In this document: piece by piece, positions 3,282-14,359 of the stretch | How the letters are laid out: each line of letters begins with the position of its first letter | Numbering within the stretch: the stretch's first letter is position 1 | NCBI RefSeq assembly: GCF_034932065.1 | Contig: NZ_JAYGHP010000001.1 | Coordinates: 62,001-126,000 of the forward strand | DNA length: 64,000 nt | From: Crocosphaera sp. UHCC 0190 | GTDB lineage: Bacteria > Cyanobacteriota > Cyanobacteriia > Cyanobacteriales > Microcystaceae | Reading direction: 5' to 3' | Position numbers and translations under genes: made by a program | Notes under the pieces: generated by a model | Told to the model about the DNA's origin: nothing | What the model saw: only the letters and a program-made list of their open reading frames with translations | The model's database searches: none

Positions 3282-3320
3282 GACTGAATTCCCAATATTA
3301 CCAGTGACAAAACAATTAAC

Positions 3321-3352
3321 AATTGATAATTGATAATTGATAATTGATAATT
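3321..3352. repeat. Heptanucleotide tandem repeat (AATTGAT)4
   Basis: Four perfect copies of AATTGAT plus a partial AATT in the nifE upstream spacer. This is the STRR type of short tandem heptamer known from cyanobacteria. Confidence 0.9.
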
Positions 3353-3362
3353 AGATGATTGT

Positions 3363-3390
3363 CTGTTGCCTGTTCCCTGTTCCCTGTTCC
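3363..3390. repeat. Heptanucleotide tandem repeat (CTGTTCC)4
   Basis: One CTGTTGC and three perfect CTGTTCC units immediately upstream of the end of the small Mo-nitrogenase-associated gene. It is a second STRR tract in the same spacer with an unrelated heptamer. Two further CTGTTCC units occur at 13114-13127 in the nifB-nifP spacer. Confidence 0.9.
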
Positions 3391-3393
3391 CTT

Positions 3394-3696: not shown

Positions 3697-3760
3697 AACC
3701 TTTCCTCATCTTTTCAAAAATAATGGCAGAGAGTGAGAGTTAAGAGTGAGGGGGTGAAGC

Positions 3761-3818
3761 AGTTAAAAGTAAGAAGTTAAAAGTAAAAAATATTACTTAT
3801 TACTTGTGACTTATTACT
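3761..3818. repeat. Two opposed heptamer tracts that can form a hairpin
   Basis: Four AGTTAAA/AGTAAGA-type heptamers (3761-3788) are followed by four TATTACT/TGTGACT heptamers (3791-3818). The second group is roughly complementary to the first, so the transcript of the nifK downstream spacer could fold into a long imperfect stem. Confidence 0.75.
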
Positions 3819-3891
3819 TGCCGAAGAGGAGGGGAGAGGAGGGGGAGGAATAATCTCCCTGGTCTCCCTTTTCTTCCTTGTCTACCTTTGA

Positions 3892-7122: not shown

Positions 7123-7174
7123 GAATTAAGAATTAAGAATATTTAGTTCTGACTTCCGACTTCTGACTTCTTTA
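7123..7174. repeat. Heptamer repeats in the nifH-nifD spacer
   Basis: Two GAATTAA plus GAATATT (7123-7143) are followed by TTCTGAC, TTCCGAC, TTCTGAC and a decayed fourth unit (7147-7174). Two copies of GGTAAGG lie just before them at 7083-7096. The TTCTGAC tract is the complement of the repeat at 10578. Confidence 0.85.
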
Positions 7175-9293: not shown

Positions 9294-9312
9294 GATCAGT
9301 TACCAGATAGTT

Positions 9313-9346
9313 AGTTGACAGTTGATAGTTGATAGTTGATAGTTAA
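9313..9346. repeat. Heptamer repeat (AGTTGAT)n
   Basis: AGTTGAC, three AGTTGAT and AGTTAAC in the nifS-nifU gap. The tract reaches the nifS stop codon. Confidence 0.85.
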
Positions 9347-10577: not shown

Positions 10578-10609
10578 AGTCAGAAGTCAGAAGTCGGAAG
10601 TCAGAAGTT
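10578..10609. repeat. Heptamer repeat (AGTCAGA)n
   Basis: AGTCAGA, AGTCAGA, AGTCGGA, AGTCAGA and AGTT fill the fdxN-nifS gap. The unit is the complement of the TTCTGAC tract at 7147. Confidence 0.88.
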
Positions 10610-11214: not shown

Positions 11215-12690
11215 TTAGGCTCCTGCGTTTTGTTTCTGCATATACTGTTCATAGAAGTCGATAGCCACTTTATCGATGACATCGTAAGCTTCAAAGGGTT
11301 CGATTCCTGCCTTGCGGAGTTCTTCTTGAGGACAGTTGCCGATTTTAGCAGAGAGAACACCTTGACAATCAGCGATGGATTTAATGATGTTGTCTAGGGT
11401 TGCTTCTTCGCCGTAACCGCTTTGGCAATAATGATCGACTTTGCGGTGTGCCACAAATTTAACTTCTGTGCCGTCAACTTCAAAGATTTGGAATTCTTTG
11501 GCATGACCGAAGTGTTGGTTAACTAAGCGGTTGCCTTTGGTTGCGACTGCTACTAAGATTTTAGGAGCGTTTTTAACCTGTTTCTCGGCTGCTTGTTTTG
11601 CCTTAGCTTCTTTCACTTCGGCGGTGAATTTTTCGATGTTGGCATGAACTTCTTGACGTTGGGCCACATCATATTCAGGAGTCATTTCGAGGAATTTATC
11701 TTTGGTGAATTCCTGAGAACGATCTTCTCCTAATAATCCTACCGCATCCGCCCGACATTGGCGACAGTGGCGCATCATTTTCATGTTGCCAGAGCAGCTA
11801 TCCTGAACCGCTTTTAGTTCTTTGGGGGTGGGGCCTCTTTGTCCCGTTAACCCAAAGTGGGTTCCATGTTCAGGGGCTGAGATCAAGGGCATAATGTTGT
11901 GTAGAAATGCACCTTTTGACCGGATGACTTCGTTAACTTCTGCGAGGTGTTCATCATTAACACCAGGAATCATCACAGAGTTAACTTTACATAGCACATC
12001 CGCTTCTCTAAGAGCATCCAGGGCATCCATTTGCTTCTCATGGAGGATTTTAACCCCTTCGATGCCTTTGTAGCGTTTGCGATTATAACGTACCCAAGGA
12101 TAAATCTTCTCCCCAATTTCGGGGTCGATCATATTAATGGTTAAAGTAACGTGATCAATATTCAGTTCTTTGATGCGATCGATATATTCGGTTAACATCA
12201 ATCCATTACTGGATAAGCACAATTTAATATCGGGTGCTTTATCAGCGACTAATTCAAAGGTGCGGAAGGTTTGTTGGGGGTTGGCTAAGGGATCTCCAGG
12301 ACCAGCAATTCCCAAAACAGTCATTTGGGGAATTTTACCACCAATTACCAAAGCTTTATGGGCCGCTTCTTCTGGGGTCAGGACTTCGCTAACTACACCA
12401 GGACGGCTTTCATTGGCACAGTCATACTTGCGGTTGCAATAGTTGCATTGAATGTTACAAGCAGGGGCAACGGCAACGTGCATCCGTGCATAATGATGGT
12501 GAGCATCTTCACTGTAACAAGGGTGTTTAGCAATGCGTTCTTGAATGCTGACATCAATGGTCTGTGAAGTCTCACCCGTTGAAGGGCAAGCACAGTCTCC
12601 ACTTGATTTGGGAGTAAAGGAAGTTCCCATGGGAGTTGCTTTTTTAGCCGTCGATGCGTCAGCGTTGATTAGACCAGTAGATTGTAACAT
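11215..12690 (-). CDS. nifB: NifB, radical SAM FeMo-cofactor precursor synthase
   Basis: 491 residues. The radical SAM motif C78-x3-C82-x2-C85 (CNIQCNYC) is present, followed by the SAM domain (GPGDPLANP). Further Cys in [13 protein letters not shown] (about residue 290) belong to the K-cluster region. The C-terminal NifX-like domain begins near residue 385 ([20 protein letters not shown]). NifB fuses two [4Fe-4S] clusters and inserts carbon to make NifB-co. It is the first gene of the minus-strand operon and faces the repeat array at 12937-12995. Confidence 0.98.
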
Positions 12691-12936
12691 TGAATTCCGT
12701 GGAGTAAGAGGGTGACAAAAGCGTGACTTAAGAGGTTTGGGTCACTTGCTTTAAAGAGCAAAGGGTAAAACAATGAACTGTGTGTCTTCGGCGTTGTAAC
12801 CTTTATACCATCCCCCTGTTTAGGGCTTCTGCTGTGGTGAGTGGGTTCAGATTCATTGGATTACTTAGTATGTACTCAAATTCTCAATCCTTTAATTAGT
12901 GCAGGTTTGAAGTGACTATTTTTTTTATGGGGGGAT

Positions 12937-12995
12937 GGGGTTCAGGTATTTTTGAGGCGGGGTAACAGTATTTTTACTAGGGGAGTCGGGTATTT
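12937..12995 (-). promoter_or_regulatory. nifB promoter: Array of three 22-bp repeats facing nifB (candidate activator site)
   Basis: On the minus strand the hexamer AAATAC starts at 12995, 12973 and 12951, exactly 22 bases apart. Each copy is followed 9-10 bases after its start by CCCC. The copies read AAATACCCGACTCCCC, AAATACTGTTACCCC and AAATACCTGAACCCC. A weak fourth unit may start at 13017. The array ends about 250 bases before the nifB ATG. Confidence 0.65.
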
Positions 12996-13149
12996 GTGTA
13001 CTCAGGGTCTAAGTCTTATCACGTAAGGCTTTGAGTCCATTATTTTCTTGATTTTACTCCCCTCATTTTACACTCAAATTGTCAACGTTGGGCTTAAAAA
13101 TCCCCTCCTCTTCCTGTTCCCTGTTCCTCATCACATCACACTTCCCTCT

Positions 13150-13240
13150 AACAAAAGCACCGAGAAAGCATTCCAAACCTTCTCAGTGCTGTCACGGAAT
13201 TCAATTCTGTATCCAATGTAACATTTTCCTTGAGTGAGAT
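13150..13240 (-). ncRNA. Candidate small RNA in the nifB-nifP spacer
   Basis: On the minus strand AGCACTGAGAA (13190-13180) pairs with TTCTCGGTGCT (13166-13156) as an 11-bp stem with one G-U pair and a 13-base loop, followed by TTTGTT. That is terminator-like, and the pairing is better in the minus than the plus orientation. An NtcA-like box sits about 40 bases before the implied start near 13240. Together these would define a transcript of roughly 90 bases. The -10 element is weak, so this is only a candidate. It could instead be an attenuator in a long nifB leader. Confidence 0.35.
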
Positions 13241-13274
13241 TTGTTATGCCTAATTTTCGTGTTAACTAATGGGG

Positions 13275-13288
13275 GTGAAAATAGTTAC
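13275..13288 (-). promoter_or_regulatory. NtcA-like box GTG-N8-TAC
   Basis: Plus strand GTG AAAATAGT TAC, a one-mismatch form of GTA-N8-TAC. No good TANNNT box lies at the class II distance in either direction. The best candidate on the minus strand is CATAAC at 13248-13243, four bases too far. Confidence 0.4.
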
Positions 13289-13417
13289 AACCCTTATTTC
13301 ATGCAGGTTTTCTCCCTGATGTTTCCCTGGAAATTTGAGTCCTGGCATAATGCCCCGAAAAGGGATAGTTAAATTAGCTCAAGTCCTTATCTAATGAGGG
13401 CAGACACCTGAGTGCAT

Positions 13418-13476
13418 AAATGCCACTCCCTGCACCGATAAATACTGTCCCCCTCCCCAAAAAATAATCGTCCCCC
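13418..13476 (+). promoter_or_regulatory. nifP promoter: Array of three 22-bp repeats facing nifP (candidate activator site)
   Basis: On the plus strand, AAATGC (13418), AAATAC (13440) and AAATAA (13462) start exactly 22 bases apart, each followed by a C run. The central unit begins AAATACTGT, the same nine bases as the central unit of the nifB-facing array. It ends about 170 bases before the nifP ATG. Confidence 0.65.
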
Positions 13477-13648
13477 CACCCAAAAGAAACTTTATTTATC
13501 TATGAAACCCCAAGCTGATCAGGGTTTAGCAAAATCTAATTTTGTCTTAATAAGTTTAATAAACTTGACTCACCTCCCAAATCGACTGGGACAGGAAGGG
13601 ACTTGGTATAAGCATAACAACTAAGTCTATGCGAAAGCACGGAATTTA

Positions 13649-14359
13649 ATGTTTGGATCACTACCTGTCAGAGAGCGTTGTGCAAGTCCAACAGAAACCC
13701 TAATTTCTGACTCTCGGACTTCTCAACCCAACCTATTTCAATCTCTGTGGCAAGACTTTCAAATCATCTTTGAAAGAGATCCCGCAGCCCGTCATTGGTT
13801 AGAGGTGATCTTTTGCTATCCAGGCTTACACGCCTTAGCAGTCCATCGCATCTCCCACGGGCTATGGCACAAACAAATCCCTTTTGTGCCGCGTTTTCTC
13901 TCCCATATCGGACGATTATTCACAGGCATTGAAATTCACCCAGGGGCCACCATTGGCCAAGGGGTGTTTATCGATCATGGTATGGGTGTGGTCATTGGTG
14001 AAACCGCCATTGTTGGTGATTATTGCCTAATTTATCAAAATGTCACCCTCGGTGGCACGGGTAAGGAACTGGGAAAACGTCATCCCACCCTTGGCGATCA
14101 TGTTATTGTCGGGGCCGGGGCCAAAGTTTTGGGCAATCTTGAAATTGGTAATCATGTCCGCATTGGTGCGGGTTCCATTGTTTTACGCAGTGTCCCGAAT
14201 GATTGCACGGTGGTAGGAGTCCCTGGTCGAATTATCTCCCGCAGCGGCCGCGGTTGTCCGTTAGAACATGGAAAACTGCCGGATGTTGAGGGCCAAATCA
14301 TTCGGACGTTATTTGACCGAATTGAAGAATTGGAACAAAAGATACAAAAACTACATTGA
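13649..14359 (+). CDS. nifP: NifP, serine O-acetyltransferase (CysE-type)
   Basis: 236 residues. The N-terminal helical domain (FQSLWQDFQIIFERDPAARHWLEV) is followed by a left-handed beta-helix of hexapeptide repeats from about residue 100 (IGRLFTGIEIHPGATIGQGV, IDHGMGVVIGETAIVGD, GGTGKELGKRHPTLGD). It makes O-acetylserine for cysteine synthesis. In a nif cluster it feeds the extra cysteine demand of NifS. It is divergent from nifB and first in the plus-strand nif operon. The first ~25 residues are variable, so a later start cannot be excluded. Confidence 0.93.
   Translation: MFGSLPVRERCASPTETLISDSRTSQPNLFQSLWQDFQIIFERDPAARHWLEVIFCYPGLHALAVHRISHGLWHKQIPFVPRFLSHIGRLFTGIEIHPGATIGQGVFIDHGMGVVIGETAIVGDYCLIYQNVTLGGTGKELGKRHPTLGDHVIVGAGAKVLGNLEIGNHVRIGAGSIVLRSVPNDCTVVGVPGRIISRSGRGCPLEHGKLPDVEGQIIRTLFDRIEELEQKIQKLH

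Follow-up and report, generated by a model that had tools for sequence, protein, structure and literature searches.

The spacer between nifB and nifP in Crocosphaera sp. UHCC 0190 carries two mirrored arrays, each of three directly repeated 22-bp units, which belong to the known CnfR promoters and which are almost certainly targets of this regulator. Very probably, the two arrays are the switch for the nifB and nifP operons. In the accessible parts of earlier work, elements located before nifB are already known as CnfR targets (PMC8510180, PMC5943405, PMC4284476); the present analysis adds a rule of two distances between array and promoter, the arrays of plasmid relatives and a predicted Rep-like core in CnfR. 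We consider it probable that the arrays are operators of CnfR-activated promoters, and that CnfR is a modular protein whose Rep-like core sits on the 22-bp units. With less assurance, we lean towards the view that CnfR is a domesticated plasmid replication initiator, which would have kept the Rep core and the three iterons, gained a ferredoxin-like oxygen-sensing domain, and come to fire promoters instead of replication. The likeness to Rep and iterons is meant in the sense of "works like", and the nif arrays themselves are not claimed as replication origins.

The window (the whole 64-kb stretch of DNA that was analysed) contains a nif cluster in which a 958-bp spacer separates nifB (11215-12690, minus strand; radical SAM and Nitro_FeMo-Co domains), of the first target operon, from the divergent nifP (13649-14359, plus strand; hexapeptide repeats and the N-terminal domain of serine acetyltransferases), of the second. 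The nifB-facing array lies on the minus strand and consists of unit 1 (12974-12995, AAATACCCGACTCCCCTAGTAA), unit 2 (12952-12973, AAATACTGTTACCCCGCCTCAA) and the promoter-proximal unit 3 (12930-12951, AAATACCTGAACCCCATCCCCC). On the plus strand, the nifP-facing array consists of unit 1 (13418-13439, AAATGCCACTCCCTGCACCGAT), unit 2 (13440-13461, AAATACTGTCCCCCTCCCCAAA) and unit 3 (13462-13483, AAATAATCGTCCCCCCACCCAA), all read directly from the sequence. Direct reading also bears out, to the base, the hexamers of the original prediction: AAATAC at 12995, 12973 and 12951 (minus strand) on the nifB side, and AAATGC at 13418, AAATAC at 13440 and AAATAA at 13462 (plus strand) on the nifP side. As first described, the spacing is exactly 22 throughout both mirrored arrays, and the middle units of the two arrays have AAATACTGT in common. 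Every unit includes a run of 3-6 C. The equation of this spacing with two helical turns was slightly off, as 22 bp corresponds to about 2.1 turns of B-DNA, which has 10.5 bp per turn.

Several features extend the arrays beyond that first description, which mentioned neither the GAGTRCA half-sites, the second GAGTACA and the extended -10 boxes, nor the likeness to Rep and iterons; its interval (12937-13476) omits the nifB-side half-sites and the -10 boxes. A half-site precedes unit 1 on each side: GAGTACA at 12997-13003 (minus strand) before the nifB-facing array and GAGTGCA at 13410-13416 (plus strand) before the nifP-facing one. Counted over 148 nifB-facing sites, GAGTR stands at -9 to -7 relative to unit 1 in 138 cases. 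On the nifB side, GAGTACA and unit 1 may together make up a dyad; it reads GAGTA N6 TACTC in many relatives and is imperfect here. A second GAGTACA follows the nifB-facing array (12871-12877, minus strand), 74 bp from unit 3; a downstream GAGTA was looked for on the nifP side and is absent. Finally, the extended -10 box TGGTATAA is present on both sides of the spacer, as part of the predicted nifB promoter (12803-12810, minus strand; TATA 144 bp from unit 3) and of the predicted nifP promoter (13604-13611, plus strand; TATA 145 bp from unit 3).

The hexamer AAAT[AG][AC] occurs 137 + 138 times in the window. When spacings of 8 to 60 were searched, the two nif arrays, both at 22, were the only equally spaced triples. 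The spacer was also shuffled 20,000 times with a first-order Markov model: two triples at 22 never arose, a single one arose once, and 16 shuffles held a triple somewhere in the 8-60 range of spacings. Genome-wide, a mismatch-free AAATR triple is found in three places, two of which are the nif arrays. Gaps between the nif genes of the window also contain tandem repeats, for the most part of heptamers (3314-3392, 3757-3819, 7123-7171, 9312-9344 and 10578-10608). Since the pattern had been chosen after being seen, conservation is a stronger test than shuffling.

Conservation was assessed in nifB upstream regions from named loci (64 cyanobacterial of 80) and from the genomes of the class, in which NifB was matched at E up to 1e-150 in 124 of 388. 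The 186 regions obtained, less 3 under 300 bp and 17 near-duplicates, left 166 non-redundant ones. Searching relatives for the 22-bp periodic motif was a check proposed with the original prediction. Model-free counting found 57 AAAT[AG] triples at spacing 22, distributed over 42 loci; no other spacing between 10 and 59 yielded more than 5. With a 92-bp weight matrix, trained on the same related and non-independent sequences as were then counted, a scored element that includes the array is oriented towards nifB in 156 of the 166 regions. A second copy in the opposite orientation occurs in about half (81/166, 80 of them over 5 bits), and the opposite copy was never found alone. The two window sites score 63.7 and 69.1 bits, against a mean of the shuffles' maxima near -30. 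Information climbs towards the promoter among relatives, from 11.3 bits in unit 1 to 17.6 in unit 2 and 26.2 in unit 3, the most informative. Ten regions lack the element, and two of these genomes have a canonical CnfR (G378 and G043); no clear alternative 22-bp triple was seen in these ten regions or in two others with weak sites.

A class-wide scan for the strict AAATRC triple matched 39 of 388 genomes and a reversed control pattern 5, the forward matches including minisatellites and places without CnfR nearby. Four arrays away from nifB precede nifP-like genes, and further matches fall in G064 and G012. The AAATAC arrays of G247, G254, G152 and G163 might be taken for unrelated minisatellites, but those of G247, G152 and G163 are located downstream of a CnfR paralog. 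In G336 (G336:C8; L277:4387-4500) a 22-bp minisatellite of AAATACAAGTTCGATACAAGTC was found, and neither there nor at the G308 match was a CnfR gene present in the stretch examined.

The array sits at just two distances from the extended -10 box, about one helical turn apart. When TGnTATAr was searched from +90 to +230 from unit 3, its first occurrence lay 130-136 or 142-147 bp away in 219 of 224 sites, and none lay at 137-141; the rows being related, these counts are not independent events. A scan for TATAAT-style -10 boxes gave no consistent position. The second GAGTACA beyond unit 3 is located at 63-65 bp in 61 and at 72-76 bp in 71 of the 148 nifB-facing sites (132 have one, 16 have none, and it is never at 66-71), and at 62-64 in 52 and 75-77 in 9 of 76 opposite-facing sites, 15 of which have none. 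The distance from GAGTACA to the -10 stays near 69 in both classes, so that the entire array is displaced by 11-12 bp, roughly one turn of the helix. Of the 74 loci that have both copies, 15 combine promoters of different distance classes; the two window promoters both belong to the longer class.

The cnfR gene of this genome is located outside the window (G000:C6:195283-196881) and encodes 532 aa; no other gene of this genome is matched at E up to 1e-30. The protein has a ferredoxin-like N-terminus, with eight cysteines in the first 90 residues and Fer4 models matching at weak E-values, and a C-terminal XRE helix-turn-helix, for which HTH_3 scores over the cut-off. A search with Fer4_7 missed the gene, which the Fer4 model found; two of the Fer4_7 matches are, we take it, glcF-like and queG-like. 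Presence of the element follows the type of CnfR: over 25 bits, it was found in 105 of 112 genomes with a canonical CnfR and in none of 8 with a divergent one (Fisher p 7.7e-9, an overstatement, since one genus accounts for six of the eight divergent cases). Of the seven canonical exceptions, five have weak sites scoring 10-21 bits and two, G378 and G043, have none; weak sites, scoring 11.5 and 17.8 bits, are also left in two of the eight divergent-CnfR genomes. The 120 genomes scored are the 124 with NifB less G003 and G009 (not included), G281 (short) and G383, which has no CnfR and yet carries an element of 44 bits; G336 and G371 were counted as canonical though their cnfR is a fragment or split.

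The proposal that the arrays are a CnfR target with constrained helical phase is thus supported by their conservation, by the two array-promoter distances, by this co-occurrence and by published work. In the parts of these papers available to us, conserved elements upstream of nifB have been addressed by reporter and deletion experiments (PMC8510180, PMC5943405), and three of them are thought to bind CnfR, loss of the sites lowering nifB1 transcription (PMC8510180).

The CnfR family shows some further variety. The divergent proteins are encoded a few kb from nifB (L314, L316-L319 and L322-L324, in G232, G278, G016, G106, G085, G063, G096 and G049); their N-terminus has about four cysteines, as against the eight-cysteine ferredoxin-like one, and their nifB upstream regions are without a full element. 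They are possibly a second type of nif regulator. Two CnfR-like proteins of 426 aa in the frame read (L320 and L321, in G184 and G022) are without the C-terminal helix-turn-helix, in genomes without a NifB match. At L278:1552-6719, two cnfR genes flank a ParB-like gene, itself preceded by a 22-bp AAATGC/AAATAC triple. Finally, plasmid ABRG53d of Pseudanabaena sp. ABRG5-3 (L293) encodes a true CnfR (58% identity) near psbA and the anaerobic bchE.

Sequence profiles of CnfR recognise its helix-turn-helix and Fe-S parts only: no Rep family was found among 13 Pfam matches up to E 1, nor among the PDB sequence matches listed (60 of 75). In an AlphaFold2 model of the full protein (pLDDT 82, pTM 0.71), the single Foldseek match in the PDB at E <= 0.001 is RctB domains 2-3, and VIA-align superposes 229 residues on R6K Pi bound to iteron DNA (Z 10.3, rmsd 4.0), its remaining rows matching the C-terminal helix-turn-helix. 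With the core alone (residues 76-455; pLDDT 88, pTM 0.87), the three Foldseek matches at E <= 0.001 are all RctB, and the first 28 VIA-align rows are replication initiators: RctB at Z 10.8, Pi at 10.7, many RepE-type entries at 8.2 to 7.5, and dimeric RepE at 5.0, followed by a CRP-type regulator at 4.3. These 28 entries represent few distinct proteins, mostly RepE54 co-crystals. Identity with the Rep matches is 6-13% and the Foldseek TM-score of significant matches at most 0.48, so that the packing of the domains differs. The core of CnfR is thus predicted to adopt the tandem winged-helix fold of iteron-binding replication initiators.

On these grounds we propose the following mechanism. Each array would be an operator, one for nifB and one for nifP, made of three directly repeated, iteron-like 22-bp units and a preceding GAGTRCA, at one of two fixed distances from an extended -10. 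CnfR would comprise three modules: an N-terminal ferredoxin-like Fe-S domain (the presumed oxygen sensor), a central Rep-like core and the C-terminal XRE helix-turn-helix. At low oxygen, we infer, CnfR would fill the three units adjacently and cooperatively on one face of the DNA, with one core per unit, and the array-bound protein would aid RNA polymerase at the -10; the XRE domain may read the GAGTRCA half-sites.

The rival that survives best accepts the arrays as CnfR sites but holds that only the XRE helix-turn-helix touches the units, the core linking CnfR molecules to one another or contacting RNA polymerase. XRE is the sole DNA-binding part that Pfam recognises, and the GAGTA/TACTC dyad present in many relatives could be read by an XRE dimer. 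But 22-bp direct repeats are a known type of target of R6K Pi, according to the part of the source available (PMC4980987), and the modeled core aligns with Pi bound to iteron DNA. We regard this division of labor as possible, though distinctly less likely than binding of the units by the core.

Relatives of CnfR were found in 41 plasmid records with a paralog as query and in 53 with CnfR itself, 10 of these 53 through the Fe-S part only. We examined 24 of the 41 records in a non-random choice, one of which, with a true CnfR (H1), was excluded from the array test, as were L270, L272, L276 and L282 (cut or near copies). In plasmid loci, the CnfR-family gene usually precedes a large gene. This next gene is annotated as CyRepA1 in L286 and L305 and matched as such in L298 and L300; it is annotated as PriCT-2 in L287 and L288, and is PrimPol-DnaB-like in genome loci L271, L272 and L276. 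In many of the searched loci, the downstream gene gave no family match.

Between the two genes, a significant periodic array was found in 22 of 26 loci (p <= 0.01, the minimum for 100 shuffles), with a spacing of 22 in 16 loci, 21 in 3, and 23, 33 and 39 in one locus each. Only 1600 bp of any longer stretch was used, and the stretches of L295, L303 and L307 include small annotated genes. Strong arrays (z of 6 or more) are present in 19 of the 26 gaps, against 3 of 252 control windows from the same loci; the array is not significant in L295, L297, L302 (p 0.06, spacing 22) and L303. As a rule the array has exactly three units, with adjoining positions at background level; only two units are good in L286 and L296, and the L294 array is weak. 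Some units resemble those of nif, many of which read AAATACTAGTACCCC: AAATACCCC was found in L271-L274, and CTAGAACCCC or CTAGTATCCCC in others. Units of L290-L292, L299 and L307 are quite different. In 7 of 20 loci, the flanking half-sites are separated by 114-115 bp (p <= 0.05, uncorrected; three of these loci, L287-L289, are close relatives); the separation is 97, 139 and 145 bp in 3 others at p <= 0.05, the remaining 10 loci being non-significant; the corresponding nif distances are 113-118 (106 cases) or 124-129 (81). Most plasmid arrays tested have no -10 at the nif distance, and their role may therefore be in replication rather than in transcription. By eye, several loci of L284-L307 show a palindrome, TGATCA..TGATCA or TTAATTAGATTAATTAG, past the second half-site, and no -10 box. 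A search of viral contigs gave 43 pattern matches and no relatives by tblastn.

In a tree of 44 proteins, the canonical and divergent CnfRs and two others, together the CnfR-type group, form one clade (100/99); one of its canonical members, L293, is itself encoded on a plasmid. The plasmid proteins nearest to it are those of the AAATAC-array group (91/85, at an unstarred fork), then the CTAGAACCCC group. An N-terminal CxxC is found in none of 27 proteins of the plasmid group, and 8 of 8 canonical CnfRs have 8-9 cysteines in their first 90 residues.

Could the likeness between nif and plasmid arrays be mere convergence, cooperative binders selecting repeats of whole turns? A spacing near 21-22 is expected of such binders generally, and the more distant plasmid units have other core sequences. 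Against this, the proteins themselves are homologous, with 37-39% identity over about 465 residues, the nearest plasmid group has the same AAATAC core in three units of 22, and both the three-unit copy number and the 115-bp half-site distance recur. Convergence is therefore unlikely in our judgment. No more probable is that plasmids captured a nif regulator, instead of the reverse. The tree is unrooted, with a long-branch warning from the program, and a single branch splits the plasmid proteins from the CnfR-type group, a topology that would accommodate such a capture. But diversity is far greater on the plasmid side, most known replication initiators of this fold come from plasmids, and the midpoint root falls among the plasmid proteins, which suggests a passage from plasmid to nif. 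As for functionless short tandem repeats of the ordinary cyanobacterial kind, the heptamer arrays between nif genes in the window might invite that reading, which is hardly credible given that place, orientation and phase are conserved across the class.

How CnfR recognises nif genes bears on attempts to move nitrogenase into other phototrophs. Reading the arrays as iterons bound by a Rep-like core would provide a structural model and a rule of phase to follow when synthetic nif promoters are built, and would suggest that the regulator may have come from plasmids. If this is true, its living plasmid cousins still adjoin three-iteron arrays of their own, beside replication genes.

Among known systems, the closest are the cis-elements of CnfR (PatB), namely motifs I-IX before nifB and nifP in Leptolyngbya boryana and CS1-CS3 of nifB1 and nifB2 in Anabaena variabilis (PMC8510180, PMC5943405, PMC4284476). 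As far as the available parts of these papers describe them, they share with the present arrays a position upstream of nifB, divergent control of nifB and nifP, and several conserved elements; their promoters have an extended -10, as here, without a -35, and a conserved TGAGTATA motif. The same parts yielded no two-distance rule and no link to plasmids or Rep. Among the papers searched, none has both CnfR and "replication initiator", and the main text of the CyRepA literature searched does not mention CnfR, a helix-turn-helix or iterons.

The second comparison is with theta-plasmid origins, whose iterons are direct repeats of about 17-22 bp in helical phase, as are the units of the nif arrays. 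In the accessible part of one source (PMC4980987), the iterons of R6K and pPS10 are 22 bp long, as here, those of pSC101 number three, again as here, and separating iterons by a half turn abolishes cooperativity. On the protein side, the modeled CnfR core matches the winged-helix fold of RctB (Vibrio cholerae chromosome 2) and of the theta-plasmid Reps. The differences are that the arrays serve nif promoters here, that CnfR adds Fe-S and XRE domains, and that it has no sequence-level match to Rep. The third comparison is with the cyanobacterial CyRepA1 plasmid modules, in which a CnfR-family gene, an intergenic array and a replication gene follow one another, and which differ from nif by having no N-terminal Fe-S cysteines and mostly no -10 at the nif distance.
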